A stretch of DNA of 57,956 bases, from the NCBI RefSeq assembly GCF_010672525.1, contig NZ_JAAHGH010000042.1, positions 1-57,956 of the forward strand, in the 5' to 3' direction. Positions 5,852 to 48,167 of the stretch are shown here, in pieces. Numbering within the stretch: position 1 is the first letter of the stretch; each line of letters starts with the position of its first letter. The notes beneath the pieces were generated by a model that saw only the letters and a program-made list of their open reading frames with translations, had not been told where the DNA came from and did not search any database. The translations under genes were made by a program, and so were the position numbers. Source of the stretch: Okeania sp. SIO2B3. GTDB lineage: Bacteria; Cyanobacteriota; Cyanobacteriia; Cyanobacteriales; Microcoleaceae.

Positions 5852-6237
5852 ACCTAAAAACTGACACAAAGAAATTAGCCAGCCTGTTTCAATGGCTGGT
5901 TGAATAATATTAGGAGTCAGAAGTCATACCCAATCGATAAATGTTTGCTACAAATACATAGGGTATTTATTAGGATTAAACCCACCCCCTAACCCCTCCC
6001 AGGAGCAGAATTCAGGAGTCAGAATGAATGGCTTCAATTAAGATTTTGTATATTGAAGAAGGCAGAAGTCAAAAGGGAAAATTGCATGGGAATTCTAACC
6101 CCAAACAATTTTGAGAACCCCCGTTGACGGTGAGGTATAAAAAAATGTTCCATCTTCAACCATTACCAAATCTTTCTTGATCTCCCCATCTCCCCATCCT
6201 CCTGACTCCTTATTCACACTATAGAACTATCAAGAGA
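5852..6237. repeat. Gene-free spacer made of dispersed repeats
   Basis: Three repeat fragments fill this spacer. About 5934-6050 matches 52010-52140 (caatcgataaatgtttgctacaaata against caattcgatcaatatttgtt, then an acccaccc/cccctccc tract and agtcagaatgaat). 6056-6134 is the inverted partner of 3039-3127. About 6145-6185 (aatgttccatcttcaacc) matches the inside of the MITE at 9986-10182. No open gene is seen. Confidence 0.6.
5877..5901 (+). terminator. Stem-loop after the XRE-ImmA operon
   Basis: AGCCAGCC (5877-5884) pairs with GGCTGGTT (5894-5901), with one G-U, across a 9-base loop. No long T run follows, so it may be a weak terminator or mRNA 3' end structure. Confidence 0.4.
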
Positions 6238-7521
6238 TTAGTCAGGAATGGCATCGGGCAATTCCTCTTCCAGTAATCTGAGGCGAGGATACTGATAAGC
6301 AGCAATGGTTCCCACAATTGCTAATAAACCTATAACAATGTCTAGAAGACCAACTCCACGACCTTGGCCAACTCCAATTATTTTTCCTATATTTCCTGCT
6401 AAAAGACTATCAGGAGTCATCAGAGGTTCAAAAATTAAATCGTCTAGAGGACCAGCGATCGCATAACCAAGAGTTAAACTCACACTAACAATGGGAGCTT
6501 TCAAACCAAAAACCCTTCCCTGAGCTTCTGGAGGTACTTTCTTTTGAAACATAACTTGCACTAAAGCGTTAATAACAGGATATGTACCCAACAAACAAAA
6601 GTAAGAAACTGTGAATAGAAACAGGGAAGGTTGTAAACCTGCCAAGAAAATGAAAAGACCTCCCAGAAGGGTAAAGGCAAATATGATTTTGATGTAATGC
6701 TCCTGAGCTTTCCAGATACTCATCATCAGGCTACCTAATACTAATCCACAACTGCCAATAGATAAAACAATCCCCAGACCAGTGGGGGACGTGAGAGATA
6801 AAACTAGGGGAGTAGTAAGAACATTAAATATTCCTATAAATAGGTTATAAGTAGCAAAGAAAATTAATAATCCCAGTAATCCTGGTTTAGTAATGAGGCA
6901 ATTCCAACCATAGATAATCTCCTTCAAAAAGGATTTGTCCAAAGTCTCTTCATCTGGATTGTTTAATTCCTGAAATTTAACTAACATCAAAGGAACAATG
7001 GCAAAAAATAAAGTAGCAAAGTCAATAACAATGATGCCTGGGATGTGAATAATAGGAAGCAATATACCTGCTAAAACTGGTGTAATTAGTTTAGATACAC
7101 CCCGCCCCAAACTGGTTAAGCCACTGGTACGGGATAGGTTTTCCTTTGGTACTAACAGAGTAGTGGCAGCAGCATAAGCATTAGCCTGAAAGGTACTGAA
7201 GCAAGCACTAAGAGCTTCGATGATGTACAAGTGCCAAATTTCTAGGTTTCCTGTAATGAATAACCAAGCAATGCTTAAAGTGCAAAGACCAGCACAAAAA
7301 TCAGCAATAATCATTGTCCAGCGACGGCTCCAGCGGTCTACAAACCCTCCTGCTATTGGGGAAATAAGTAGACTAGGCAAGTTACCACATAAAACCAGTA
7401 AACCAAACTGCGTAACTGAGCCAGTTTCTTGGAACAACCAAACATTGAAAGCAAACTCAGTTAAGCGAGAACCTACCAGGGAGAGAAATTGTCCAATCCA
7501 GATGATAATAAAGATTCTCAT
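6238..7521 (-). CDS. MFS transporter
   Basis: This 427-residue membrane protein has about twelve hydrophobic segments. Its N-terminus (FIIIWIGQFLSLVGSRLTEFA) and the TM2-TM3 loop (GGFVDRWSRRWTMIIADF) carry the major facilitator signature of the MFS_3/enterobactin-exporter-like branch, usually proton-coupled efflux pumps in the inner membrane. The C-terminal ~60 residues contain a final helix and a charged tail. Substrate unknown. The neighbours are the acyl-CoA-dehydrogenase-fold enzyme upstream and repeats downstream; nothing ties it to a pathway. The ATG at 7521 lies next to a heptamer tandem repeat (ggagtag units, 7530-7558), which may have replaced the original leader since no Shine-Dalgarno site is visible. 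Confidence 0.85.
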   Translation of the reverse strand: MRIFIIIWIGQFLSLVGSRLTEFAFNVWLFQETGSVTQFGLLVLCGNLPSLLISPIAGGFVDRWSRRWTMIIADFCAGLCTLSIAWLFITGNLEIWHLYIIEALSACFSTFQANAYAAATTLLVPKENLSRTSGLTSLGRGVSKLITPVLAGILLPIIHIPGIIVIDFATLFFAIVPLMLVKFQELNNPDEETLDKSFLKEIIYGWNCLITKPGLLGLLIFFATYNLFIGIFNVLTTPLVLSLTSPTGLGIVLSIGSCGLVLGSLMMSIWKAQEHYIKIIFAFTLLGGLFIFLAGLQPSLFLFTVSYFCLLGTYPVINALVQVMFQKKVPPEAQGRVFGLKAPIVSVSLTLGYAIAGPLDDLIFEPLMTPDSLLAGNIGKIIGVGQGRGVGLLDIVIGLLAIVGTIAAYQYPRLRLLEEELPDAIPD

Positions 7522-7634
7522 TCAGCAGGGAGTAGGGAGTAGGGAGTAGGGAGTAGGTAGGTTGGGAAGTATGGGGATATCAAAAACACAGAAATCATCA
7601 ATTTAATTTCTACTGCTTCATAAAACTGATATAA

Positions 7635-7761
7635 TATCATGTCCGCTTGAATACTTATACTTTGGTGGAAGGAAGGCAGAGGGCAGCTATGCTGGAGGCA
7701 GAAGGGTTTCTTATAATTGAAACTTAATTCTATACACGCTCCGATGCTACCGGACATGATA
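7635..7761. mobile_element. MITE family 1, copy 1
   Basis: The 127-bp element has ends TATCATGTCCGC and (reversed) TATCATGTCCGG. The flanks are TAA at 7632-7634 and TAA at 7762-7764. The inner end carries GGTAGCATCGGAGCGTGTAT (reversed), shared with the copies at 9832 and 9986. No coding capacity. Confidence 0.85.
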
Positions 7762-7922
7762 TAAAACGTCACATAGCGTGATATTTTAATGTTTACTTCC
7801 TGCTTCCACCGGAACTGTCGGCAGCACTCCGTCCACCGGAACTGTCGGGTCTTGCCCGACCGCATCTCTTAAATTAATACTGGCATTCAGATTAACGTAT
7901 TATATTGTTATTCGTTGATTAA

Positions 7923-8063
7923 TATCATGTCCGGATAATTAGTTATGAAAAAACTTATCATGAGTGCTTCAACAATAAATCTTTCTATTTTCCTTACTCC
8001 CCTACTCCCCCACTCCCCTACTCCCCTACTATCTTAATTATAAGTATTCAACCGGACATGATA
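7923..8063. mobile_element. MITE family 1, copy 2
   Basis: The 141-bp element has ends TATCATGTCCGG and (reversed) TATCATGTCCGG. The flanks are TAA at 7920-7922 and TAA at 8064-8066. The interior is an octamer tandem repeat of the ctcccct type. Its duplication ends one base before the stop codon of the flavoenzyme gene at 8068. Confidence 0.85.
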
Positions 8064-8067
8064 TAAG

Positions 8068-9276
8068 TCAATGCTCTCTCTTCCCCGAAGAATTAAAAAA
8101 CGCCCGGTCGCTTTCTTGCCCCAGTACTTCCTGACCAATTGAGGCCAAGACGCGATCGCAATTATCATGGAGGGTATAAAAGGACAAATCTCGATAAATA
8201 CGTTCCAGAGGACTGGGTTCAATCATACCACGAGCACCACACATCCGAGTACAGTGTTCCAAGGTCTCCATTGCGAATTTTTCTGACAAATAACGAAAGC
8301 GGTTACCAGCTTGTTTTGCCTGCTGGTGTTGACCTGCTTCCCACAAGCTAGCCACTTTTCGCAGCCACAAGTCCATGGTTTCAAGATTCATCATTGATTG
8401 AGCAATGCGATGCTGCACATAAGCATCCTGTTCTCTCCTTTGCTTTTTGATATGAGCTAAGGCATAATCATAAGCCCCCTCTGCCGCCCCCAAAAATGCA
8501 GCCCCATACTGAGGAGTAAAGCGAGTTTGCCACTCTTCCAGCAAGTATTGCCCTGGATAGCCAATTAGATTTTCGTCAGGAATAAACGTGCGATCGAATT
8601 GCACGCGATAACTTACACTTCCCCGCATCCCAATTGGTTTCCACCAGGTTGAATCAAAGCTTACACTTGGGTCTGATAAATCACAGGCTAACATCAACAC
8701 CGAACTCGCTGGTCCATCGTGATGACGAACAGCTCCTGTTCCTGCTGTACTCACAAACAAGACCGCCCATTGTAGTCCATCTGCTCCTGTGGCAAAGACC
8801 TTGGAGCCATCAACAATATAGCCCCCCTCTACAATTTTAACTGTGGTACCAATACCAGTGGTTTGCCCAGGGACTTTGGAGAGAGGTTCCCCACTCCAAC
8901 CCGCCCATTTTTCCCCTCGTTGGACAATCCCTTCAAACCAACGTTGCTTTTGAGCTTCATTAGCATTGGCTGTCAATAATACTTGTATATTAGTATGTCC
9001 TTCCCAGCAACGAGTGAAGGCTAAATCTACTTTTGCCAATTCTCGTGTCATCATCCAGAGGGTGAGAATATCACTGCTGTGACTTAACCCTAAACCACCA
9101 TATTTAACGGGTACAGCTGGAGCATGAAGGCCTGCATGAAACAAAGTCTCAAAGTTTTCTGCAGGGAAGCTTGCTGTTTTGTCGTACTCAGTTGCACGGG
9201 AGGCAAACTGCTCCTGAGTTAGCTGGCTTAAACGCTCAAGCACGGCCTGTTGATTGTAGATAAGATGAGTTTGCAC
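8068..9276 (-). CDS. Acyl-CoA dehydrogenase-fold flavoenzyme
   Basis: This 402-residue protein has the three-domain acyl-CoA dehydrogenase layout: N-terminal helices (1-120), a middle beta domain (about 125-235, with WAGWSGEPLS in the FAD-contact region and GGYIVDGSKVFATGA), and a C-terminal helical bundle with the family signature MCGARGMIEPSPLERIYRD near residue 355. True dehydrogenases have a catalytic Glu in a YEGT-like motif just after this signature; here the position reads TLHDNCD, so classical dehydrogenation is doubtful. Flavin-dependent monooxygenases of the same fold (DszC-like) also lack that Glu, so an oxygenase using reduced flavin is a reasonable alternative. It stands alone between repeats. 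Confidence 0.8.
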   Translation of the reverse strand: MQTHLIYNQQAVLERLSQLTQEQFASRATEYDKTASFPAENFETLFHAGLHAPAVPVKYGGLGLSHSSDILTLWMMTRELAKVDLAFTRCWEGHTNIQVLLTANANEAQKQRWFEGIVQRGEKWAGWSGEPLSKVPGQTTGIGTTVKIVEGGYIVDGSKVFATGADGLQWAVLFVSTAGTGAVRHHDGPASSVLMLACDLSDPSVSFDSTWWKPIGMRGSVSYRVQFDRTFIPDENLIGYPGQYLLEEWQTRFTPQYGAAFLGAAEGAYDYALAHIKKQRREQDAYVQHRIAQSMMNLETMDLWLRKVASLWEAGQHQQAKQAGNRFRYLSEKFAMETLEHCTRMCGARGMIEPSPLERIYRDLSFYTLHDNCDRVLASIGQEVLGQESDRAFFNSSGKREH

Positions 9277-9556
9277 AGTTTATTTAGCAGAAAATTTTTG
9301 TGTTTACTATTTAAATAGCAGTCAGCAGTCAGCGGTCAGCTATCAGCTTCTAGTTGCGTGTATAATGGAGGATTAAAACTCCCATAAAAGGCGCACCGCT
9401 AATTTTTCAAATATAGTGGGGGACTTAAAACCTTGGATTTTTAGCTGATAGCTAAATGCTGAAAGCTAATAGCTAGTTAATATTATCCTAAAAGCTAATT
9501 TATCAAGATAATCTAAAGATAATCTAAAGAAAGTCTGATACAAATCAAGTCAGGTG
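9277..9556. other. Gene-free spacer
   Basis: This stretch holds short cagtcag/cagcggt heptamers (9320-9350) and A/T-rich sequence with the near-palindrome tagctgatagctaaatgctgaa. No gene, promoter or stable RNA is supported. Confidence 0.5.
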
Positions 9557-9559
9557 TTA

Positions 9560-9706
9560 TGTCATGTCCGGTTGAACAGTTATAAATAAATAACGACGGA
9601 GGAGTCAGTCCTCAGTCCTCAGTCCTCAGGAGGAAAGAGGGAAGGAAGAAGAAGAACTGGAGTTGAAGGAGAAAGTTTTTTATCATGCTCTTATCCGGAC
9701 ATGATA
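9560..9706. mobile_element. MITE family 1, copy 3
   Basis: The 147-bp element has ends TGTCATGTCCGG and (reversed) TATCATGTCCGG. The flanks are TTA at 9557-9559 and TTA at 9707-9709. The inner end GTTGAACAGTTATAAATAAA is shared with copies at 23674 and 28477. The middle is a cagtcct heptamer repeat. Confidence 0.85.
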
Positions 9707-9831
9707 TTAGATTCTAAGTAAAATTCAGATTTTAATCAACGCTTCGTTGCAGCAATCTTTAAATGATTTAAACTAGGCTTATCAAAACTTTTTCAAATCA
9801 ACTCAAGGTCAGAGAAGAGATAGACCTATTA

Positions 9832-25784: not shown

Positions 25785-25890
25785 AAAAATCCGGTAGTCC
25801 AAACTAATGCAAAGTTTTATGACAAAGCTTGACATCAAGTTTTACAGAGTGTCATACTAAATCTAGTAAAGTATTTTCTAGGTTAAATTG

Positions 25891-28446
25891 ATGAGCCATT
25901 TATACCTGTTCCTACGCAGGGTACTGATTGTGTTCTTAGTGAGCACGTTGACTTTTGTCAGTACCTTTACTGGGGAAGCGATCGCTGATGATACTCAACC
26001 TTTTGTGGATTCATGTACACTTAATACAGCTAAAAGTGTTCAGCCAGTTTTTCAAAATCCACCATTTGCGTACGCAGATACAATATATACTTCACCAACT
26101 TCTGAAGAGGTCAAAGAATATCGTACAGTTACCTTCGATGCAGTTGAGGACAAATTCTACCTGCAGGGAGATGGAAGTCCGTCTGCTGACAATGGATACG
26201 ATGGCTACCTCTACAAGACTACTTACTATGGTCAGAGTACAAATCCACCTCAACAAAAGACTATTGTTAGAGACGATAGTGGAGGGAATCTACCTGGAAA
26301 GCTTAAGGTAGTAGATTACGATCCAGACAGTCCTCCTAACAATATGGTTGGAACCTTTACCCCACCAACTATAGTGGTATCTCCTAGTGAGAGTAACAAG
26401 ATATTTAGTAGACCTAATTCCATTAACCTAGACCTCACCAATGATTTACCAGTAAATGTTGAATTGGCGGGAAATTTGCCACAAACAAAAGAAAATTTAG
26501 AGAGTGTATCTCAATACACTAACATTCATTATCATGGTTTCAACGTACCTCCTTCACTGGGAATTGATGATGTTTTGGTGGATGTTCCCTCTAATGTGAC
26601 ACCAAAACCTGTAAAATTTTCACAAACTCCAAGCCCGACTCCTATTACGATACCAGTTCAAGATAGTCTAGTTAAAAAAGCAAAATTATATACTGAAGGT
26701 GTCACTACTGATGACAATTACAAGTTAATACCAGTCCCCCCACTTGGCGAAACAACACCTGATTCAAGCGATGGTTCAGCAAGCAATCTTCCTGGTGGTT
26801 ATTATCCAGGTAGTGAAGCCAAGCCTACTAAATATGGTGGTCCGATCAGCGAGTACACGATGGATGTCAAGATTCCATACGTCCATCAGTCAGGACTATT
26901 TTGGTATCATTCCCACGCCCACTCACTCAGCGATAATCAGGTTCGGGGTGGTCTGTCGGGTGGAATTATTATTAAGGGGAGCGATCAGTATTACGAAATT
27001 CTCAGTCCCAATCCAACAAAAGGAATTCACGCCTATCAGAACGCACCAATTATACCACCAGAACCTGAGCGGTTTTCCGTACCTCAAAGGGTAATGACGT
27101 TCAAGGATTTTAATAATGTTCTAGGCTCAAAAAACAACAAACAAAATTGTTTCACTCTTAATGGTCAAGTCAATCCCAGCATAAGTATTGAGCCAGGGGA
27201 GGTTCAGTTCTGGCGCATTGCTAATATTGGTGCAGATACTTACATGAACATTGCTCTGGAAGAAGCAGATATGAATAATCCCGCCCTTGCTCGCCCCAAC
27301 AATAAACCAAATTTTTATATCTTGGCACGGGATGGTAATTTTGTTGAAAAGGTAGTACCAACTAACTCAGTTCTATTGCCACCTGCTAGTCGGGTAGAGG
27401 TTCTTGTTGTAGGAGGTAAGACAGCACAAGGAAATAACACATATAATCTTGTTTCCGACCTTACCACTGGCTTGACTCAAGGCCAAAAGTGGGTATCTTC
27501 TCCGCAGAGTAGCTACTTGTTAGCAACTGTAAACGTAGAAAACAGCGATCCAGTATGCTATGAATCTCCAGGTAATAACAAACTAAACCTTAATGATTGG
27601 AATGGGACATCCCTTTGTTCAGGTGGCTCTGAAGGCTTATATGATTACATTGAAGCACAGGTGCCAACAACTCCAACTGGAGGAGATGGCGATCCTGATG
27701 TAGACAAGATATTGCCAGATCCTGAAGAACTCTTCAATGGTTATTATCCCTCTGGTCGTATACCAATATGCGCAAACAGGAAGCAAGATTTTGTCAATGA
27801 TTCATGCCTAACTCCATCGACTTTGTATAGCGATCCGCTTACTAAGAAACGTTACTTCTATTTCAGTCAAGATAATAAGAAGTTTTTCCTTAAAGGATTT
27901 GAGAAAGCACAAGAAGCAAGCAATACAGACCCTGAAATCCAAGAACTATATGATGGCAACCGAATTGATAAAATATCCCAGATAGGGGACCTAGAAGAAT
28001 GGCACTTGGTCAATGTCACTGGAGCTGCCCATGTTTTCCACATACACCAGCTTGATTTCGTGGGGACTGAGGTTACTCTCAATCAAAATCCATGTGATAG
28101 TGGCTCCCTAGATACCTGCACCTACAATAACTACAAAGTAGGGATTTATAAAGGAGAAGGAGAAGATCCAGAATATAATGGGTGCCGACAAGATGGTGAT
28201 AATTTCATTTGTCCTCTATTACCTCAAGGATATCGGGATGTAATCAACTTACCTCCACACAGTACAACTACAGTCCGTATTCCCTTTGTCAATCCCTTTA
28301 TTACTGGTACATTTGTCTATCATTGCCATATACTAGCACACGAAGACCGGGGCATGATGAATAATCTGAGTGCGGAAAATACAAAAGGGTATCAAGAACA
28401 AGAGGTGATACCACTATTAATACAGAGATCGCGAGGCCAAAGATGA
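25891..28446 (+). CDS. Secreted multicopper oxidase, copy A
   Basis: The 851-residue enzyme has a signal peptide (hydrophobic residues 9-24, then TFTGEAIAD). All four copper motifs are present: IHYHG, WYHSHAHS, HVFHIHQLDF and HCHILAHEDRGMM, the last holding the type-1 Cys and axial Met. It is larger than laccases (~500) because of inserts between the first two motifs (about 230-300) and around 560-640. It should oxidise phenolic, tetrapyrrole or metal substrates in the periplasm or outside, reducing O2 to water. The ATG at 25891 is used (TTG just before). Intact paralogue at 29371, broken one at 14613. Confidence 0.92.
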   Translation: MSHLYLFLRRVLIVFLVSTLTFVSTFTGEAIADDTQPFVDSCTLNTAKSVQPVFQNPPFAYADTIYTSPTSEEVKEYRTVTFDAVEDKFYLQGDGSPSADNGYDGYLYKTTYYGQSTNPPQQKTIVRDDSGGNLPGKLKVVDYDPDSPPNNMVGTFTPPTIVVSPSESNKIFSRPNSINLDLTNDLPVNVELAGNLPQTKENLESVSQYTNIHYHGFNVPPSLGIDDVLVDVPSNVTPKPVKFSQTPSPTPITIPVQDSLVKKAKLYTEGVTTDDNYKLIPVPPLGETTPDSSDGSASNLPGGYYPGSEAKPTKYGGPISEYTMDVKIPYVHQSGLFWYHSHAHSLSDNQVRGGLSGGIIIKGSDQYYEILSPNPTKGIHAYQNAPIIPPEPERFSVPQRVMTFKDFNNVLGSKNNKQNCFTLNGQVNPSISIEPGEVQFWRIANIGADTYMNIALEEADMNNPALARPNNKPNFYILARDGNFVEKVVPTNSVLLPPASRVEVLVVGGKTAQGNNTYNLVSDLTTGLTQGQKWVSSPQSSYLLATVNVENSDPVCYESPGNNKLNLNDWNGTSLCSGGSEGLYDYIEAQVPTTPTGGDGDPDVDKILPDPEELFNGYYPSGRIPICANRKQDFVNDSCLTPSTLYSDPLTKKRYFYFSQDNKKFFLKGFEKAQEASNTDPEIQELYDGNRIDKISQIGDLEEWHLVNVTGAAHVFHIHQLDFVGTEVTLNQNPCDSGSLDTCTYNNYKVGIYKGEGEDPEYNGCRQDGDNFICPLLPQGYRDVINLPPHSTTTVRIPFVNPFITGTFVYHCHILAHEDRGMMNNLSAENTKGYQEQEVIPLLIQRSRGQR

Positions 28447-29370: not shown

Positions 29371-31650
29371 ATGAACCATTTATGCCTGTTCCTACGCAGG
29401 GTACTGATTGTGTTCTTAGTGAGCACGTTTACTTTTGTCAGTACCTTTACAGGAGAAGCGATCGCTGATAAGGGTGATTTTCCAATAAGAATTGACATTA
29501 ATATTAATGGTGTACCAGAACTTGACATTAATGTTAATGGTGTACCACTTAATAGAGTACCAGGTACAGCTACTCAATTCAAATCAGAACAGCAAATTGA
29601 TGCTACTGGTAATGTTGATGAGTTTGTCAATGCCTGTACACTTGAGCGAACAGATGGTGACGGTATTGCCCAGCCAGATTTTCAAAATCCGCCCTTTGCA
29701 AATGCGGATCAAGGCCCAGTCACTTTAAATGCAACTTTGGGTGAATTCACGTTGGAGGGAGATGGGACTGGCGAAACTTCTTACCAAGGCTACCTCTACG
29801 GAGCAACTTACGCGGGTTTGAGAAGAGTAGAAACAACCTTAGACCCAACCTATACCCCACCAACTATAGAGGTATCTCCTGGTACTCGCCTTGATTTAAC
29901 CCTTGAAAATAACTTACCAGTAAATGTTCAATTGGCAGGGAGTCTACCACCAACAAAGGAAAATTTAGAGAACCAATCTCAATACACTAACATCCATTAT
30001 CATGGCTTTAACGTATCTCCTTTACTCGGTTCTGATGATGTGTTGGTGGAAGTTCACTCGAATGTGACACCAAATCCAGCTCCTCCTCCTCAATTTATAG
30101 ACAATGGTGGTTATTATCCAGATGATGATCCCCCAGGCTCTACATATGGTTCGATCGCTGATTACCAGATGGGAGTCAGTATTCCAGACATCCATCAGTC
30201 AGGACTATTTTGGTACCATTCCCACGCTCACTCAATGAGCGATAATCAAGTTCGGGGTGGTCTGTCTGGTGGAATTGTTATTAAAGAAACTGAGGAGTTC
30301 TTCCCTTTGCTTAATCGCTTCAAAAAAGGGATTAAGGGAGGAATCAAGTATCTCAACCCTAGTCGGCGTCAGTTCCAAGACGAGGAATTCGACGTTTTGT
30401 CTGTACCTCAGAAGGTGATGATGTTCAAGGACTTTAATGATGTTCTAGGCACAAAACAGGCCGATTGTTTCCCTCTCAATGGTCAAGTCAACCCAAAAAT
30501 CACGATTAAGCCTGGAGAGATTCAGTTCTGGCGGATTGCCAATATAGGGGCGGATCGGTATATGAATATTGCCCTAGAAACTATCGCATCTGATACAAAC
30601 ATCCCTTCATTTACTGAACCCAATGGCAACACCAATTTTTATATCTTGGCCCGTGATGGTGATGTTGTTAAGGAACCAGTAGCAACTAACTCAGTTCTAT
30701 TGCCACCTGCTGCTCGAGTAGAGCTTCTGGTAGTAGGGGGTGAGACAGATAGTGAATATCATCTAGTTTCCGATCTTGACACCCACTTGACCACAAAGCA
30801 GCAACAGTGGGTTAACGATGCAAATAAAAAAAGCTACAAGTTAGCAACTGTTGGAGTAACAACGGATGCTCCTGTATGCTACACAGATGATGAGGGCAAC
30901 CCACTTTCTCTACAGGATGAAAGCGGCACATATATATGTGGCGAAGAAGGAGATCAAACTTTAGATGACTACATCAAAACCCAGACACCATATAAAGTAG
31001 ACAGGATACTACCAGATCCTGATATTTTAGCTGATTTTGAGGAATGCGAGCCGGAGGAATTTCTTACGGCACGTGCTGGCGGACCAGCACCGGAGAAAGC
31101 CTGCATAACTCCAAGTGATGCCTATTCCGATCCACTTACTCAGGAGCGCACCTTCAATTTTCAAGCACCAGGAGGAGGGAAGTTTGCTATAAACGATAAA
31201 GTATACAGTGGAAACCGGATCGATAAAATTTCTCATATCGGGGATACCGAAGAATGGGAAGTGGTCAATACTACTGGTGCTCCCCACGTTTTCCACATAC
31301 ACCAGCTTGATTTCTTAGTTACTAAGGTTAGTCTGACCAAAAGTCAATACCCTGACGGACCGCCAGAGGGAACCTACAATAACTACACCATAAAAAATGG
31401 GGAATGTACGGATGATGGTGAAAACTATATTTGTCCTTTAGAAACTCAGGGATACAGGGATGTAATTAACTTACCCCCAATGAGTACAACTACAATTCGT
31501 ATTCCCTTCGTAAATCCATTTATTGCTGGTATATTCGTCTATCACTGCCATATACTACAACATGAAGATATGGGCATGATGCAGAATCTACAAGTTGTAG
31601 ATCCCAATGCCTATTACGAGCCTTTGGTGCCTGAGCCTTTTTCAAAGTAG
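29371..31650 (+). CDS. Secreted multicopper oxidase, copy B
   Basis: The 759-residue paralogue of the gene at 25891 has nearly the same signal peptide (TFTGEAIADK). Copper motifs: H209xH211G, H283xH285, H639xxHxH and H725CHILQHEDMGM. After the signal is a short internal repeat not found in copy A (ININGVPELDINVNGVPL, residues 43-60). The family copper set is complete, so it should be active. Transcription probably ends at the strong terminator at 31755. Copies A and B differ by inserts and many substitutions, so the duplication is older than that of pstB. Confidence 0.92.
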   Translation: MNHLCLFLRRVLIVFLVSTFTFVSTFTGEAIADKGDFPIRIDININGVPELDINVNGVPLNRVPGTATQFKSEQQIDATGNVDEFVNACTLERTDGDGIAQPDFQNPPFANADQGPVTLNATLGEFTLEGDGTGETSYQGYLYGATYAGLRRVETTLDPTYTPPTIEVSPGTRLDLTLENNLPVNVQLAGSLPPTKENLENQSQYTNIHYHGFNVSPLLGSDDVLVEVHSNVTPNPAPPPQFIDNGGYYPDDDPPGSTYGSIADYQMGVSIPDIHQSGLFWYHSHAHSMSDNQVRGGLSGGIVIKETEEFFPLLNRFKKGIKGGIKYLNPSRRQFQDEEFDVLSVPQKVMMFKDFNDVLGTKQADCFPLNGQVNPKITIKPGEIQFWRIANIGADRYMNIALETIASDTNIPSFTEPNGNTNFYILARDGDVVKEPVATNSVLLPPAARVELLVVGGETDSEYHLVSDLDTHLTTKQQQWVNDANKKSYKLATVGVTTDAPVCYTDDEGNPLSLQDESGTYICGEEGDQTLDDYIKTQTPYKVDRILPDPDILADFEECEPEEFLTARAGGPAPEKACITPSDAYSDPLTQERTFNFQAPGGGKFAINDKVYSGNRIDKISHIGDTEEWEVVNTTGAPHVFHIHQLDFLVTKVSLTKSQYPDGPPEGTYNNYTIKNGECTDDGENYICPLETQGYRDVINLPPMSTTTIRIPFVNPFIAGIFVYHCHILQHEDMGMMQNLQVVDPNAYYEPLVPEPFSK

Positions 31651-39687: not shown

Positions 39688-40587
39688 ATGAACTCATTAG
39701 ACATCTCCAAAAATCCAAAATAAAATCAATTCTTATCCATAAGTTATCAATTATTTCTCCCTGTTGCCAGATGAGCTGTTGCCTGTTGCCTCTTTTCTGG
39801 AGATGTCTATTGAGATTCCACTGGCGATTAGCCGCACAAGCAAATAGGCTAGGAGTTGCCTCACAAAATGCTAAACTCCAGGCAGGTAATTCACCTGAGC
39901 AACAAGCGCATTTACCAAATATCGAGAATAATCTTTTCTTCTGTCGCCGTGCTGAAGAAATTGGCATTGATTCCCTGTTGACTGCCTTCAACTATTACAG
40001 ACCAGATCCAATTGTACTTTCTACTGCTTTAGCAATGGCAACCGAAAAGATCAAATTTATGGTTGCCTATCGACCTGGAGCAATTTCACCGACCTTGTTT
40101 GTCCAACAAATTAATACCCTTTCTGCCTTAAGCAATGGTAGAGTCAGCTTAAATATAATTATGGGTCATTCTCAAAAAGAGTAAGGCTACTATGGTGATT
40201 TTCTCGAACACGATCAACGTTATCAGCGAGCTGAAGAGTTTTTAGAGATTTGTCAAGCTTTTTGGCAAAAAAATGGCGGGTTTACCTTCAAAGGCACTTA
40301 TTACAATATTGAACAAGGGCAAGTCGGTACTCCTTTTGTGGCATCAGAGAGAAATTCTCCTGAAATCTACATCGGTGGGGGTTCGCCCCAGGCACAGGAA
40401 CTCGCTGTCAAGCAAGGTAATTGTTGGTTACTTCTTTTTGATACCCCAGATAAACTGCGATCGCGTATTAAAAGCATAATTGAACAAGGAATAGAGGTAG
40501 GTCTGCGTGGTTCTATCATTGCTAGACCTACTCGTGAAGAAGCCATAGAAGCTGCTTATTCTTTGATTAGTACTGGGAACAACGTGC
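39688..40587 (+). pseudogene. Third luciferase-like monooxygenase, disrupted
   Basis: Three lesions are visible. First, a 108-bp element (39700-39807) sits after codon 4; removing it with one TA gives ATG AAC TCA TTA TTG AGA TTC CAC TGG, i.e. MNSLLRFHWRLAAQ, matching the starts of the paralogues at 21353 and 22538. Second, TAA at 40182-40184 replaces the Gln of the KEQRYYGDF motif; the frame then continues to about 40580. Third, the 3' third is missing at a junction with the pyruvate kinase relic. Preserved motifs include FMVAYRPGAISPTLFVQQINTL and PEIYIGGGSP. Dead gene. Confidence 0.88.
39700..39807. mobile_element. Element with GACATCTCC ends and TA target
   Basis: GACATCTCCAAAAATC at the left and its match ...CTGGAGATGTC at the right are flanked by TA (39698-39699, 39808-39809). 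TA duplication points to an IS630/Tc1-type mobiliser. It interrupts the monooxygenase pseudogene after its fourth codon. A decayed relative is at 18112-18270. Confidence 0.85.
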
Positions 40588-41729
40588 AGTATAACCAGAA
40601 CTCGTAAAAGCAGCAATACAACGCAACGGTAAAATCTTATCTATAATATTAAGTGCTTCACTAATAGCATGAGTTTCATCCGTTTCTGCTGGAGGATAAT
40701 TAATAAACTGCGTATCTTTCTCCACATCTTCCGCAATACGCACCATCATTTCTACTGCTTTAACCGGATACTTACCCACTGCTGACTCCCCAGATAGCAT
40801 TACTGCATCAGTACCATCAACAATAGCATTTGCCACATCACTAGCTTCCGCACGAGTGGGGCGAGGTTCGTGAATCATACTCTCTAACATCTGGGTAGCT
40901 GTAATTACCGGAATACCTCTTTTATTGCACATCCAAATAATCTGTTTTTGCAGCATCGGTACTTTTTCCGGTTTCATTTCTACCCCCAGGTCTCCCCTTG
41001 CCACCATAATACCATCGCATTCTTTGACAATAGCTTCTAAGTTAGCGATCGCTTGTGGTTTTTCGATTTTTGCTATTACTGGCACATCTGCATCTTTTTC
41101 TTTTAAGATTGATTTTAGCGTCAAAATATCTTCAGCACTACGCACAAAGCTCAACGATATCCAGTCTACTCCGTGAAACAAACCAAATTCTAAATCTTTT
41201 TTATCTTTTTCTGTCATTGAAGGTAAGCGCAAATTCAAACTTGGTAAATTAACTCCCTTACGACTTTTGAGTAACCCACCTGTAATCACTTTGCAACTAA
41301 CAGCATTTCCCTCTACTGACTCCACTTCTAATTCTAATAACCCAACAACTCTAATACCTGAGTTCCTGGTTTTGCTTCTTCTGCTAAATATGGGTAGTCA
41401 ATGCCTACTTTTTCTGGTTGATGAGTATCATCAGCTAACGGTATTAGAGCTAGCTGTGCCCCTTCTTCTAAAGTTATTGCACCATCAGGGAGTTGACCCA
41501 CTCTAATTTTCGGACCTTGGAGGTCTTGCAAAATAGTAATGGAAGTATTTAATTCTTCAGAAATAGAGCGCAATAGAGAAACTGTGTAAGCATGGTCTTC
41601 ATAGCTACCGTGAGAAAAATTTAGTCTTGCTACATTTAGACCTGCTTCAATTAGTTGTTTAATTACTTCTGGAGAGTTACTAGCAGGGCCAATAGTTGCA
41701 ACTATTTTAGTCCGATGAGGTATAGACAT
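40567..41729 (-). pseudogene. pyk: Pyruvate kinase, frameshifted and truncated
   Basis: Residues 1-131 (41729-41334) read [20 protein letters not shown] ... [12 protein letters not shown], the pyruvate kinase N-terminus. A frameshift near 41345, where the usual LLDDG stretch is garbled, moves to a second frame (41325-40567) with [46 protein letters not shown] and [14 protein letters not shown], the active-site region. The protein ends after [13 protein letters not shown] at the junction with the monooxygenase relic (about 40575-40585), so the C-terminal allosteric domain is missing. A functional copy must exist elsewhere if the cell uses this enzyme. Confidence 0.9.
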
Positions 41730-42840: not shown

Positions 42841-44448
42841 ATGTACACCTTTCCTATTTTTTCCAAATCATTTTTGTCCTCCCTAGACCAGGAAACACTA
42901 TTACGCTTCGTTGAGTATAAGAAAAAGTTCGATAAAGGGGAAGAGTTACCCCCAGAATCGAAGGAGTTGCTTGGTCGCTTTTTTCCCGAGTTGTTGGACT
43001 TTAAGGATTACATTTTCAAGGCAGTAGTACCGGCCATGTTAACAAATATAAATGGAGGAGCGAAGTTAACCCTGCCACTAATTGACAAGGAAATTCTTGA
43101 CAAACAGGATGCAATTCCCTATTTCTTGTGGGGGATGTTCTACGACAGTTGGAAACCAACACCTGAAGAAGGAACTACAGTATTTTTTACTGGTTTCCAA
43201 AACGGCGATCAAAAATCTGATGTTCCTACAATTCGGGGAGAGAACAATGAGAAGAAAAAGATTTACTATTCAGCTCTTACTCCCGATCTATTCCCGAAAT
43301 ATGAAGACAAGGTAGTTGGTTTTTGGGAGGAACTATTAGATAACCGCAATGCCAATAAACCACTGATGGGACTTTACCTAGACTTGTATTTCTACCTATA
43401 CTGGGACTTGCATCTTGGAGTCGAACGCGGTGACATTATTCAAGATGTTCTAGATATAGGAAGGAGTTTTATGAATGTCATTGGTTATCTAAATCCGCTC
43501 GAATCTATTGTCTACACAAGCTACATGGATGTGCGTGAAAAGCGCCAGTCCTTGAATGATTGGATTAAAGACAATATCAGTTCAGGCTCAGGCGAAGAGG
43601 AGAAAAAGACATTCGTACATTACTGGCTCAAGAATAGCGAACAAGATGACAACTCGAAATATTTTAATCAGGACGATATTATTTTCGAGTGCTTCCACAA
43701 TTTTCTGGCCTTTAGCCAGTGGGGGAATACTATTTACAATATCATCGAGAGGTTCATCAATAACGAGGCTAATATTAAAACGAAATTTGAAACAATGATG
43801 AATGCTGGCAATTCAGAAGAACCTGATGATAAGGGATTTAGCCCCCTTGATTATTTTGTAATGGAGTTATTCCGCTGGATTTCGCCAAACAGTGGAAGCA
43901 TCTCTAATATAAAAGATAACAAAATCTTCTCAATCCCAGGAATCTACGAAGGAATCAACTTATATAACTACCATACAACTCCGCACGAGGCCACCAGCGA
44001 CTATGAGATACATTGGACAGACCCTGGAGATTTCAATCCCGATCGCTACAAAGAGGAAAATGTTCCGACTAGCGATGAAATTACTGAGGAGAAGTGCAAA
44101 CAAATCGGATTTGTCCAATGTCCTTTCCACAAGGCGGATTTCAACGTGGATGATGGACGAAACGCTCAGGTGACTAATAGTGGATTTGGTACTGTTTATA
44201 ACGTTACTGAGGGCAAAACATATCCTGTGATTGACTATGCAGGGTACGCGCCCTTCGGTTTCGGATACCGTCGCTGCCCAGGGGAATTATTCACTGTTTT
44301 TGTGATCAAGGAGTTCCTGAAAAAGGTATGGAATGATGGTAACCAAATCCAATTCAAGGAACTAGATGAACCAAGTGGGGGGTATGAGCAACTTCCCTTA
44401 GGACCGCGTGCAGTACTTCCCGACAAATATGGATTTGAGACTTACTAA
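42841..44448 (+). CDS. Divergent cytochrome P450-like haem protein
   Basis: The 535-residue protein has P450 landmarks in order. ELFR (342-345) is the ExxR of the K helix, a meander ends in GDFNPDRY (396-403, like PERF), and the haem loop FGFGYRRCPGE has Cys479. The expected I-helix oxygen-activation motif (AGxxTT) is not seen; residues 280-300 read ECFHNFLAFSQWGNTIY. About 65 extra residues (404-468, with CPFHKADFNVDDGRN) lie between the meander and haem loop. Missing I-helix acid/Thr is known in P450s that do not activate O2, such as CYP74 and peroxygenases. AGGAG precedes the ATG. It converges on the ferritin-like/propeller pair. Confidence 0.78.
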   Translation: MYTFPIFSKSFLSSLDQETLLRFVEYKKKFDKGEELPPESKELLGRFFPELLDFKDYIFKAVVPAMLTNINGGAKLTLPLIDKEILDKQDAIPYFLWGMFYDSWKPTPEEGTTVFFTGFQNGDQKSDVPTIRGENNEKKKIYYSALTPDLFPKYEDKVVGFWEELLDNRNANKPLMGLYLDLYFYLYWDLHLGVERGDIIQDVLDIGRSFMNVIGYLNPLESIVYTSYMDVREKRQSLNDWIKDNISSGSGEEEKKTFVHYWLKNSEQDDNSKYFNQDDIIFECFHNFLAFSQWGNTIYNIIERFINNEANIKTKFETMMNAGNSEEPDDKGFSPLDYFVMELFRWISPNSGSISNIKDNKIFSIPGIYEGINLYNYHTTPHEATSDYEIHWTDPGDFNPDRYKEENVPTSDEITEEKCKQIGFVQCPFHKADFNVDDGRNAQVTNSGFGTVYNVTEGKTYPVIDYAGYAPFGFGYRRCPGELFTVFVIKEFLKKVWNDGNQIQFKELDEPSGGYEQLPLGPRAVLPDKYGFETY

Positions 44449-44635
44449 GAGGAGATAAAGATTAAAAGCTCTAGGGTGCATCTTATTATTTGCTCTCCTA
44501 CCCAGTGTATTAGGGGATGGGGACTCTGTGAGACTCTTGACAAAGTAGATTTCCAGAATATCTGGAATACAATGAGGGCGATCGCTGCATTCGAGATAAC
44601 TGTGGCGATCGCTCTCTAGCTTCTCATTTGCAATC

Positions 44636-46732
44636 TTAGTCTTTCATATCGCTCTCTATCCAGCGATTAAACAGCTCTATTTGATCGTCAGACCAGCAAG
44701 CATCATAAGGAAGAGAACCCCTGTTGAGTCCTTCTCGAAGCTTTTCCGCATTGGCTCGGACATTTTCTACATCATTGAGATTGATTCCGTCTAACTGTTG
44801 CAGAGTTTCTACATCAAAATCTCGAAAGAGTGGCCTGATATCTACGTTGTAACCCACCCCATCGGATTGTCGGTATGCTTGCCTTGGGGGAAGGAGATCG
44901 AGATTTGGTTCTTGTTCGTGGTGGACACCAATCTGCTTTGGTGGCTCGTTATCTGGTGCTTGATCGTCAACCCACTCCCGGACAAACTCTTGCCTGGAAC
45001 TATCCACTTGTGGTCGATAGCGGGGCATTTTACCAGTTTTACTAGAACTCTCCTCTAATCGACTTACCAGTTCCGAGCCTTCTGCGGTTAAATTGCAGTT
45101 CTCGTCTTCATTGCGATTGAGGAAAGGTCGGTTAAACATATGCAATTGCACAAATTGCTCGCGATTGATTCCCGCCCAGAAATTGGTGTGACCATCGATA
45201 GAAAACCCCCGTACTGCTTCTTCCAGAATATGAGCTACCTTCTGAAAAGCTTTTGTCTGAGCATCTGTGGGGATAGTCTGACCCGCAGCCAAAGCCTTTA
45301 AAATGTTCTCCCGTCCTTGGTCAGACTTCTGTAAATCCTCCAAAAATGGGTCTTCTTTGTCTGAACCATCCTGAAGCATTTTTTCCACTAAGCACAATGA
45401 AGCCTGGACAACATCTAAATGGACTCGCCAACGATCGCGTTCGTTGTCTGCTAGATCGAGGGTATAGGGCAATTGAAAAGGAGGACCAGCTGTCACCCCA
45501 TTATAGTCTGATTTTAGTGGCAGTCGCACCATCTTCTGGGCAATTTTCTTAAGATGGCGCATTTCATCAAAAGCCCATAACAGTAAGAAGCCACGGGGGG
45601 TGCGATCGCCTTTATCAGGCCCTGAAGATATGTAGCGACGACCCGTTGTTCTCAAGAAATGGATTAAAAAAGCCAGCAGTAACCGATAGCGTAAGTTGAA
45701 CAAATGTCCCCAGTTACGGGCGCGAGGGTTTGCTATATAGCCCCGTTCCTCAAAGGCCGCCCGGATAGACTCCTCAAGCCCATCGTAAGGTACGGGACGT
45801 GGCGGCACGGTACTGGGGTTAGTTGCCACTGGCCAGACACATTCGACCCCCTCACCCTTCAACTTGCAGAAATCCTGATAAAGTTGAAAGAAGCGCTCGA
45901 AATGGGAGTCAACCGTAGAGCCATAGCCTTCCCCTTGTTCGGCAATGATTTTGAGAGCTTTGACGGCCTCCTGGCGTAAGGTGTCCGGATGAGATCCTTC
46001 AAAGGCATCCACATAAACTCGTCGAGACTCAGTCTCATCATCAGTGCCAAGACCCTCATCATAGCCCCAATCATCCCAGGTAGCTTGGAGGTCGATCCGG
46101 TCTGTCAGAAAGTCTTGATCTTTGATTTCATCTTCATTGCCAAAAAGTTCGAGCAGACGTTCGTAAATCGCTCCCACGTGCTGAATAGGACGACCATCAT
46201 TAGCACGCTGAGCTATGTTGGCAATTTTTTGGAGTTTTTTCCATATTTCGCTAGGAATATCCCCCTGTTCGGCAGGCCGTTCGGCAGTAATATACTTTGC
46301 TAATGAATCCTTTGATAGGGGTTCGAGCTTGAAACGGAATGGATAAAGTTCGCTTTCAAAAGGGGAATGTTCCCGCTCAAAATTTAGGGGAGCGCCAATG
46401 AGGTGCAGCAAATTTTGTACCGTCATCAGATGCCCCATTTCTTCCCGTGCTAGTTGAGCTAATCGCTGATAGAGCGATTTCACTCGTCCCTTTGTCTCAT
46501 TATTTTCTTGGTCGTCGCGCACGGAATAGGCAGCATAGAGGTACTGAACCATTAAAGCGTGCTCCACTTCCGCTGCTACCGTCAGCAATAAGGCGGCTTC
46601 ATCTCGCGGGTTACGTTGGAGTTCAAAACTCAGGGACAATTTTGTGAGATCGAGGCTGGCAATCTCAGATTTGTCTTGTAATGGTGGTTGACAAGCTAGA
46701 ACCTCTAGGGGGATATCATAGTTTTTTTTCAT
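44636..46732 (-). CDS. VioB-type ferritin-like domain protein
   Basis: The 698-residue protein has an N-terminal ferritin-like helical bundle (about 45-290): EVEHALMVQYLYA (55-67), REEMGHLMTVQNLL (96-109, ExxH at 98-101) and EQGEG...DSHFERFFQLY (265-285). This matches the iminophenyl-pyruvate dimer synthase (VioB/RebD-type) domain that binds iron. A second helical part (320-520) has DEMRHLKKI (389-397), another ExxH. The C-terminus (about 630-698: DIRPLFRDFDVETL ... DDQIELFNRWIE) is a small module often attached to such proteins. It follows the propeller gene by 4 bases, so one operon. Likely di-iron redox chemistry; substrate unknown. Confidence 0.8.
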   Translation of the reverse strand: MKKNYDIPLEVLACQPPLQDKSEIASLDLTKLSLSFELQRNPRDEAALLLTVAAEVEHALMVQYLYAAYSVRDDQENNETKGRVKSLYQRLAQLAREEMGHLMTVQNLLHLIGAPLNFEREHSPFESELYPFRFKLEPLSKDSLAKYITAERPAEQGDIPSEIWKKLQKIANIAQRANDGRPIQHVGAIYERLLELFGNEDEIKDQDFLTDRIDLQATWDDWGYDEGLGTDDETESRRVYVDAFEGSHPDTLRQEAVKALKIIAEQGEGYGSTVDSHFERFFQLYQDFCKLKGEGVECVWPVATNPSTVPPRPVPYDGLEESIRAAFEERGYIANPRARNWGHLFNLRYRLLLAFLIHFLRTTGRRYISSGPDKGDRTPRGFLLLWAFDEMRHLKKIAQKMVRLPLKSDYNGVTAGPPFQLPYTLDLADNERDRWRVHLDVVQASLCLVEKMLQDGSDKEDPFLEDLQKSDQGRENILKALAAGQTIPTDAQTKAFQKVAHILEEAVRGFSIDGHTNFWAGINREQFVQLHMFNRPFLNRNEDENCNLTAEGSELVSRLEESSSKTGKMPRYRPQVDSSRQEFVREWVDDQAPDNEPPKQIGVHHEQEPNLDLLPPRQAYRQSDGVGYNVDIRPLFRDFDVETLQQLDGINLNDVENVRANAEKLREGLNRGSLPYDACWSDDQIELFNRWIESDMKD

Positions 46733-46736
46733 TGCA

Positions 46737-48167
46737 TTAATCCTCTCGAAGTTGATGGGGAATACTCGCAGTTAAGGGGATTTGAGTTCCAGTACGTTCA
46801 GGGAAAATCAGTCGGCTTTCTGCATAGCCATCACAGGTGACGCGCACCATAAACTGTCCGGGGGGTAACTTTTGGCCGTTGTCATCTTGTAAATCCCAGG
46901 AGAGAGAGCGATCGCCTGCTGCGGGATTCTGTTCTTCTAGCAAAGTTCGTACTTGTCCCGCAAAGCGATCGTAGACAACTACAGATAAGCTTGTTGCACC
47001 CTCGGGTATGGTGAGGGGAACAAGTGCGCGATCGGCAGCGATTTTAAGTTCCGTTGCTCCGAGCAAGCGGTTACCAGCTACTTCCCCTTCTTTTGGCCCC
47101 CATAACTCTTGATTGGTGTATTTATAAACAGTGTTACCGGAAGCATAAGCAACACGGTTCTCACCTTCGCCAACAAAGCGAAATCGGTTGATATATTGGC
47201 CTATATTGCAACGAGGGGGACAGGGATAGCCGTCAATGGGCTTAGGCCAAGAGCCAGTCAGGTCTATCCAGGTTTTACCCCCATCTCTTGTCTCGCTAGT
47301 GCGACCACTGTCAAAGGTGGCATCTCCCCAACCACCAACCCAACCAAGGTTACGATCCCAAAAACCAATGCCTTCTAGGTTCTCATTAATCATATGACAG
47401 TTGTCGCGAATTTCTTGTCGTCGCCAGGAGTCTCCCCCGTCCTCGGTAATGAAAATTGCTCCTGCCTTCAGGTTCTCACAGGCAACTACCCCAAAGTCTG
47501 GATCGTCCTCTAAAAATTGGATTTTCCAGCCCCATTCCCCTAATGGAACATTGATATCTTCGAGCATATCTTTCCAAGTGTGACCACCATCCTCTGTCTT
47601 CAGGACTGTCGGCACAACATCGTCACGACGGGGGTTAGGCCGAACCGAACGACCCCCGACAACCCAACCTATCTGATCATTTTGGAAGTAGATATCCACT
47701 AGAATGCTAGCTAGATCCTCCATATCCCTCACAAACCAGCTTTCACCACCATTATGTGTTTTGAAGAAGCGTGCCGGTCGTTCGGGGTAGTTAGTTCCTG
47801 ATGCGAATACGTTGTTTTCGTCGAGTACCCAAAGTCCGCAAACGGCTGAGGGGGCATCGGCGGGCAGGTTATTTACCAAATCCCAGTCTTTACCGCCATT
47901 ACTGGTGTGGTAGAGTTGTTTCCCTGGGGTCGTACAACCTGCCCAACCATGTTCACCATCTTGAGTCATCCCAATACAGCGAAAGTAAACGTCCTTTAAC
48001 TGTGTTTTGATATCCCATTTTTTTCCACCATCTTCTGTTTTTAGAATTTGTCCATTCCCGTTAACAGCCCAACCAACATCAGGATTGATGAAATAAATAT
48101 CGTCATAACGACCTGCCAATGGTGCTGGTGTGGCTATCCACTGATAGCCATTGTTTGTTCCGTTCAT
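46737..48167 (-). CDS. Ycf48-like beta-propeller protein
   Basis: The 476-residue protein has at least six BNR/Asp-box motifs of the form TxDGGxxW: TEDGGKKW, TSNGGKDW, THNGGESW, TEDGGHTW, TEDGGDSW and TRDGGKTW. That gives a propeller of about 350 residues like the photosystem II assembly factor Ycf48, followed by a C-terminal Ig-like (FlgD-type) domain (about 390-465: LSWDLQDDNGQKLPPGQFMV). Unlike Ycf48 it has no signal peptide or lipobox, so it is probably cytoplasmic. GAGGA lies 8 bases upstream. It is the first gene of the operon with the ferritin-like protein and may hold or deliver that enzyme. Confidence 0.82.
   Translation of the reverse strand: MNGTNNGYQWIATPAPLAGRYDDIYFINPDVGWAVNGNGQILKTEDGGKKWDIKTQLKDVYFRCIGMTQDGEHGWAGCTTPGKQLYHTSNGGKDWDLVNNLPADAPSAVCGLWVLDENNVFASGTNYPERPARFFKTHNGGESWFVRDMEDLASILVDIYFQNDQIGWVVGGRSVRPNPRRDDVVPTVLKTEDGGHTWKDMLEDINVPLGEWGWKIQFLEDDPDFGVVACENLKAGAIFITEDGGDSWRRQEIRDNCHMINENLEGIGFWDRNLGWVGGWGDATFDSGRTSETRDGGKTWIDLTGSWPKPIDGYPCPPRCNIGQYINRFRFVGEGENRVAYASGNTVYKYTNQELWGPKEGEVAGNRLLGATELKIAADRALVPLTIPEGATSLSVVVYDRFAGQVRTLLEEQNPAAGDRSLSWDLQDDNGQKLPPGQFMVRVTCDGYAESRLIFPERTGTQIPLTASIPHQLRED

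Follow-up and report, generated by a model that had tools for sequence, protein, structure and literature searches.

The stretch of DNA analysed here (the window) comprises 57,956 nucleotides of Okeania sp. SIO2B3, contig NZ_JAAHGH010000042.1, which is contig 187 of a 10.0 Mb genome (G000), and contains three adjacent genes for unusual proteins. The first (42841-44448, + strand) encodes a P450-like haem-thiolate protein of 535 residues, assigned from its open reading frame (ORF), Pfam, AlphaFold, Foldseek and a tree. The second (44636-46732, - strand) encodes a ferritin-like protein of 698 residues carrying a PF12902 domain, assigned from its ORF, Pfam and its relatives, and the third (46737-48167, - strand) a Ycf48-like propeller of 476 residues with a FlgD-type immunoglobulin (Ig)-like tail, in which no signal peptide was seen by eye. 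The P450-like and ferritin-like genes are convergent with an intergenic gap of 187 bases; the propeller gene is the first of the remaining pair, on the same strand and 4 bases before the ferritin-like gene. A preliminary description had these genes clustering alone as a joint haem and non-haem-iron oxidation system. Their isolation holds for about 1 kb on each side, where no ORF exceeds 100 residues except short overlapping ones, but not for the window as a whole, in which an ordinary P450 and two multicopper oxidases are encoded elsewhere. We propose, with somewhat better than even confidence, that the locus holds two neighbouring and mostly independent units, a peroxide-using member of a P450-like family and a di-metal ferritin-like/propeller module.

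The P450-like protein is a member of a widespread, overlooked family of the P450 superfamily. By itself it scores 21.8 bits with PF00067, under the cut-off of 22.8 and in the haem loop only. Its first relatives came from three plasmids and from a single further genome in a scan of 386 genomes of the phylum (a match of 22 bits over 75 residues in G157 in the same scan was taken as chance and dropped), and a scan of viral_contigs returned no relative. A scan of species genomes with the first alignment gave 105 relatives, of which 80 were kept, in cyanobacteria, proteobacteria, actinobacteria, myxobacteria, Chloroflexota and other hosts; PF00067 matches 49 of 50 family members at E<=0.01. The P450 fold is confidently modelled: AlphaFold, given an alignment of 50 rows (49 relatives), returned a model with a predicted local distance difference test score (pLDDT) of 88.9 and a predicted template modelling score of 0.91, with which Foldseek found 891 PDB matches at E<=0.001 (best E 2e-7). 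The 50 PDB matches listed of 1264 are all P450s, with template modelling scores of 0.39-0.54 by query length and 11-16% identity.

Motifs were read from an alignment of 85 family members, three duplicate records included and none left out. The ExxR of the K helix (E342-R345, 43864-43875, + strand; E and R in 85/85) and the haem loop APFGFGYRRCPGE with Cys479 (44248-44286, + strand; Cys in 84/85) are conserved family-wide, as the preliminary description would lead one to expect. It was also right that the I helix lacks AGxxTT: residues 282-296 (FECFHNFLAFSQWGN; 43684-43728, + strand) stand in the place of AGxxT and follow the consensus FHNFxAxxQWG, in which FHNF and QWG are invariant. In detail, F282, E283, F285-F288, A290 and Q293-G295 are identical in all 85 members and N296 in 79, and neither AGxxT nor AGx(D/E)T occurs in the I helix of any of them, the three hits of a loose regular expression all lying past the helix. 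This I helix supports the earlier view that the haem protein is not a standard oxygen-activating P450. Between the PxRY motif and the haem loop lies an insertion (residues 404-467, 44050-44241, + strand) with conserved residues C427-P-F, D438, N446 and D465 (C427 in 84/85); the spacing from Arg402 to Cys479 is 73-76 residues in the 84 members having both. Its length, first put at about 65 residues, is nearer 51-53 when two solved P450s are aligned.

We propose that the P450-like protein would take peroxide or an organic hydroperoxide as its oxygen source, as a peroxygenase or a hydroperoxide isomerase/lyase, with no electron partner. The invariant Gln, Asn and His side chains of its I helix would stand where monooxygenases have an acid-alcohol pair, and in most non-cyanobacterial relatives a Tat-type (twin-arginine translocation) signal would place the action outside the cytoplasm and hence away from NAD(P)H. 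Peroxide or hydroperoxide use is rather likely in our judgement. Of 50 family members searched with NCBIfam, 26 match the CYP152 peroxygenase CypC at E<=0.01 (best 1.5e-7), more than match any other model, and 17 match the P450 ApyO model. A PDB profile search gave 16 weak matches, with CYP1A2 first (7.5e-4), a fatty-acid peroxygenase following (3.5e-3) and OleT lower.

Two groups of known enzymes invite comparison. With CYP152 (P450BSbeta, CypC, OleT) the family has in common the P450 fold, weak profile matches and the lack of AGxxT, but it differs in its insertion of about 50 residues and in the Tat-type pattern of many members. The CYP152 I helix carries an Arg-Pro pair, and here the P450-like family reads SQWG, with Q293-W294-G295 in 85/85; membership of CYP152 was rejected. 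With the CYP74 clan and prostacyclin synthase (PGIS) the family shares an I helix that has amide residues in place of Thr. According to the excerpted text of PMC13049297, self-sufficient P450s that rearrange hydroperoxides or endoperoxides often have an I-helix Asn near the iron, though some do not, and the I helices read FATcFNTwGGMKI in plant AOS and LQlWATQGNMgPA in PGIS. The invariant Q293 and the common N296 would suit this I-helix Asn idea without proving it. The motif of CYP74 and PGIS is nevertheless not that of the P450-like family, which differs also in having an ordinary haem loop; neither CYP74 nor PGIS appears among the family's PDB-profile, Pfam and NCBIfam matches. Membership of CYP74 was likewise rejected, its F-N-x-W-G-G groove (PMC13049297, in the same excerpt) being absent from the family. 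Several of these results weigh against peroxide use: the best PDB profile match, CYP1A2, is not a peroxygenase, the Arg-Pro pair of CYP152 is missing, and an NCBIfam search of the window protein itself gave no match.

P450 enzymes in general are considered to depend on cytoplasmic partners driven by NAD(P)H. The predicted export of a P450-fold protein would argue against NAD(P)H-fed oxygen activation. A Tat-type pattern, defined as an RRxFL-type motif near the N-terminus with a hydrophobic stretch after it, is found in 42 of the 66 non-cyanobacterial members (counted without the duplicate records L005, L006 and L024), against a background of 19 among 678 ORFs of at least 200 residues in the non-cyanobacterial loci. 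Starts were set mechanically, as those of the longest ORF, for family members and background alike; some of the background ORFs are probably not genes, and a wrong start is possible in part of the 24 non-cyanobacterial members that lack a Tat call. In the PLSDB annotation the relatives in L006 and L007 are twin-arginine signal proteins, and several members from mycobacteria and related bacteria have, by eye, a lipobox-like Cys at the end of the hydrophobic stretch. On a tree of 80 rows (without the same duplicates and the short L072 and L103), the Tat rows cluster. A single change (100/99) is enough to part them from the cyanobacterial rows, 22 rows belonging to neither group; L087 and L088, two of the Tat rows, group with 16 rows having no Tat call. 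Two points tell against the export argument. The Pfam TAT_signal model matches only 5 of 50 members and the NCBIfam Tat model 1 of 50, so that the export signal rests mainly on our own pattern; and none of the 16 cyanobacterial members, the window protein among them, shows the pattern, so that the argument fails for the window protein.

The P450-like protein might instead be an ordinary oxygen-dependent monooxygenase whose I helix is unusual and whose electrons come from general ferredoxins. Its P450 fold, ExxR and Cys loop would fit, and some P450s do without the I-helix Thr. We consider this improbable in the face of the export pattern of the relatives and the CYP152 matches in the family, and no redox partner was noticed among the 30 largest families of neighbouring genes, which were named by eye only.

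The neighbouring pair has a different character. In the ferritin-like protein PF12902 scores 105.8 bits (cut-off 22.3), in keeping with the VioB/RebD-type bundle first described, but VioB's own equivalog model, TIGR04492, is far under its cut-off (22.5 bits versus 1250; best stretch residues 50-153). The bundle itself spans residues 50-286 (45875-46585, - strand; Pfam and alignment). Within it six residues, E57, E98, H101, E151, E268 and H277, are shared by all 14 aligned ferritin-like proteins, even the distant ones, and make a plausible set of di-iron ligands; these 14 were our choice, the ORFs of L030, L118 and L119 being left out. A second helical part, at about residues 316-458 (45359-45787, - strand), is taken from a low-confidence model and the alignment. 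The second ExxH noted there is weak: E390 is present in 12/14, but H393 only in the four closest proteins, the window's included, and the ExxH was rejected as a second conserved metal site. The C-terminal DIRPLF tail is real and recurs in relatives as a module (residues 628-696, 44645-44851, - strand). For the propeller, matches to PSII_BNR and FlgD_ig (residues 383-444, 46836-47021, - strand; Pfam) bear out the Ycf48-like fold and Ig-like tail; like Ycf48/HCF136 it is a BNR propeller, but it has the Ig tail and no visible signal peptide, and the Ycf48 equivalog NF010237 gives 61.2 bits against a cut-off of 326. A di-metal reading has to contend with an AlphaFold model of the ferritin-like protein alone that is of low confidence (pLDDT 36), and the three matches of a phmmer search of this protein against the PDB, at E 0.11, were taken as chance.

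The propeller and ferritin-like genes are a true pair. The propeller gene lies directly before the ferritin-like gene in four genomes (G000, G396, G800 and G875, the propeller match of the last covering residues 54-476 only), a propeller gene of Brasilonema (L111) adjoins one for a ferritin-like protein that ends in a DIRPLF-like tail, and in Rhizobium leguminosarum (L008) and Bradyrhizobium barranii (L010) the propeller and a more distant ferritin-like domain are fused in one protein. Only G000 has the ferritin-like protein at E<=1e-20 among 386 genomes of the phylum, and the propeller at E<=1e-30 among 292. The order of G396 (195 genomes) holds three full-length ferritin-like genes, in G396, G800 and G875 (84% for the last two); G800 and G875 are closely related, with cyclooxygenase (COX)-like proteins 95-96% identical. 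Further off, the order of a Bradyrhizobium genome (297 genomes) gave one partial match at E<=1e-15 (32% over residues 25-250), and the family of a Streptomyces genome (200 genomes) one match at E<=1e-25 (G1080, 43% over residues 41-225).

Relatives of both pair proteins are found beside genes for quinoproteins of the cysteine tryptophylquinone (CTQ) type and their maturases. Twelve plasmid records have ferritin-like relatives, eight of which match 59-61% of the length; six of the 12 were fetched, as were six of the 14 records with a propeller. The five relatives fetched from among those eight (L013-L017, 34-39% identity) all share one gene series, made up of ferritin-like, LodA_N-like, LodA_C-like, QhpD-like radical SAM and QhpG-like flavoprotein (L013 8737-15261, L014 8659-15458, L015 8893-15634, L016 7255-13750, L017 8800-15237), with the LodA_N match of L013 spread over two ORFs; the gene families were tested on genes of L008 and L015. 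The presumed CTQ Cys and Trp columns of the LodA-like rows, after the LodA residues named in the excerpted text of PMC4417212, are identical in 11/11. With the roles of QhpD and QhpG as given in part of PMC7876137, the series looks like a hybrid of a split LodA/GoxA-type quinoprotein and QHNDH-type maturases. Propeller relatives stand beside LodA/Qhp-type genes in L008, L009 and L010, and in L110 a ferritin-like gene precedes LodA- and LodB-like genes. A DIRPLF-type module also comes after the propeller: L011, L012 and L019 encode it as a small gene of its own, and in L009 it forms the tail of the next gene. In L118 (G1080, 5893-9814), partial ferritin-like, LodA_C-, QhpD- and QhpG-like matches lie together, with no LodA_N match returned.

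We propose that the pair forms a two-gene module: a ferritin-like oxidoreductase of the VioB/PF12902 type, with two metals that are probably iron, and a propeller-Ig protein in a scaffold or partner role. Since its relatives adjoin LodA/QHNDH-type cassettes, we infer that the module would handle or use peroxide around tryptophylquinone-type oxidases. Two facts temper this proposal: L011, L012 and L019, half of the six propeller relatives fetched, have no CTQ-type genes beside them, and the window pair is apparently an orphan. No LodA-, QhpD- or QhpG-like match to the L008 genes or to LodA_N and LodA_C of L015 was found in the window (tblastn, E<=1e-3); the cassettes of the relatives mix a split LodA with QHNDH-type maturases, and their core is absent here. 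A role like that of VioB and RebD, coupling oxidised amino-acid derivatives, was rejected as very improbable. PF12902 with the candidate ligands, the weak and partial VioB match and a distant relative (26%) that is annotated VioB and lies beside FAD enzymes would speak for it, but the VioB score is far under its cut-off and the closer plasmid relatives are in CTQ-type operons instead.

Two LodA_N matches do occur elsewhere in G000, on contigs C23 and C176, each beside a gene for a LodB-like flavoprotein (L022 8507-12217 and L023 4700-7876), and near the first of these loci lies a DIRPLF-like module (L022 7269-7526). The pair could act in trans as a companion of these two quinoproteins, in their maturation or in peroxide protection, as the CTQ-type neighbours of its relatives and the ferritin-like genes near fungal lodA (excerpted text of PMC4417212) might suggest. 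We hold this to be unlikely, though conceivable: no ferritin-like or propeller match was found in the stretches fetched round the two loci, and no QhpD-like radical SAM match in G000 at E<=0.001.

What the pair faces in L116 and L117, from two closely related genomes, is not a P450 but COX-like and catalase-like genes (L116 6233-9188; L117 10954-13936). The COX-like gene matches PGHS-2 at E 9e-68; its catalase-like neighbour scores 27.5 bits with Pfam Catalase (cut-off 25) and gave no match in a phmmer search. By description the two resemble the tandem of 10S-DOX and a catalase-related hydroperoxide lyase of Nostoc punctiforme (PMC13049297, excerpted text), a tandem not seen beside the window pair, and G000 has only weak, partial matches to the COX-like protein (best 2.2e-11). 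The pair may be imagined as a general peroxide partner module that recombines with unrelated peroxide-making or peroxide-using enzymes. These would be tryptophylquinone oxidases in rhizobia and others; in two cyanobacteria, a COX-like dioxygenase together with a catalase-like hydroperoxide enzyme; and, in the window, a new peroxide-run P450 family that elsewhere would have been moved out of the cytoplasm by Tat export. We put this forward as a speculation that is unlikely to be correct as it stands.

Neighbourhoods of the P450-like gene argue that it and the pair are separate units, which we think is probably the case. By tblastn, none of the 80 P450-like loci has the propeller and a single one (L030) a ferritin-like gene, at 26% identity; such absence is shown only as far as the flanks reach, 44 loci having at least 9 kb on both sides, 54 having 4 kb and 66 having 3 kb downstream. 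Conversely, no P450-like gene was found in the stretches fetched around the other three full-length pairs (L109, L116, L117). Two of the four genomes with the full pair carry the P450-like gene, G000 and G396, the latter having been found via its P450; in G396 it is on a different contig from the pair, and in G800 and G875 it was not found at E<=1e-5. The 30 largest clusters of neighbouring ORFs, made without the three duplicates and named by eye or from the PLSDB annotation, include only one, a 'transporter', that lies within 0.5 kb in as many as nine loci; broad families are spread over varying distances, among them LysR-type regulators in 13 loci, response regulators in 10 and short-chain dehydrogenases in 10. 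The 'transporter' gene adjoins the P450-like gene in L007 (11610-12539) and L006 (11683-12642).

The three genes could still make up one oxidation system, in which the P450 makes or consumes the substrate of the pair. They are adjacent; the P450-like gene and the pair are both present in the genomes G000 and G396; the COX-like and catalase-like genes of L116 and L117 occupy the same convergent place; and the G+C content at third codon positions (GC3) of the three genes is 0.444, 0.443 and 0.423 versus 0.266-0.322 in the seven nearest flanking genes examined. This common rise, a point against two independent units, leaves room for a joint arrival; GC3 in six window genes further off is 0.293-0.427, two of them (0.400 and 0.427) near the trio. 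As to co-occurrence, ferritin-like relatives were found in 2 of the 35 P450-bearing genomes searched at E<=1e-10 (taken from 35 of the 80 loci), full length at 64% in G396 and partial at 37% and 33% in G390. A full-length ferritin-like gene occurs in 1 of 14 cyanobacterial P450-bearing genomes versus 2 of 194 genomes of a single order, most of them of unknown P450 status (Fisher p 0.19), and with so few cases some co-occurrence is possible. We nevertheless regard a three-gene system as quite unlikely and rejected it as the best reading, because the P450-like loci are almost without pair genes. The expectation that the three families would be neighbours elsewhere thus fails for the P450-like gene, and the ferritin-like/propeller part of the joint system described earlier is what survives.

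Several other features of the window were noted. Between the P450-like and ferritin-like genes GCGATCGC, the cyanobacterial HIP1 octamer, is present twice (44576-44616). Just before the P450-like gene is a decayed stretch, with a pyruvate kinase split over two ORFs (40567-41729, - strand; the second holds the barrel domain by Pfam) and beside it a short ORF (39771-40184, + strand), by eye a fragment of a luciferase-like monooxygenase. The ordinary cytochrome P450 (53346-54719, - strand; PF00067, 285 bits) lies 9 kb from the P450-like gene, and the two multicopper oxidases at 25888-28446 and 29371-31650 (+ strand); multicopper oxidase genes also accompany some LodA operons (PMC4417212, excerpted text). 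The 17 promoter-like and 7 terminator-like sites are about what shuffling gives (13.3 and 7.3).

In the open-access literature, by title and start of abstract and with subscription journals mostly not covered, no paper on an exported P450 or on a ferritin-like/propeller pair was found. The pair offers a way into a group of iron-type proteins whose connection with tryptophylquinone enzymes was met in print only as a remark on fungal lodA, in the excerpted text of PMC4417212. The P450-like family is the more surprising part of the locus. If our reading is true, a broad bacterial family with the P450 fold, exported by the Tat route and without the oxygen-activating motif, would be a set of natural partner-free oxidants outside the cell membrane, and such oxidants would be easy to test and useful for biocatalysis.

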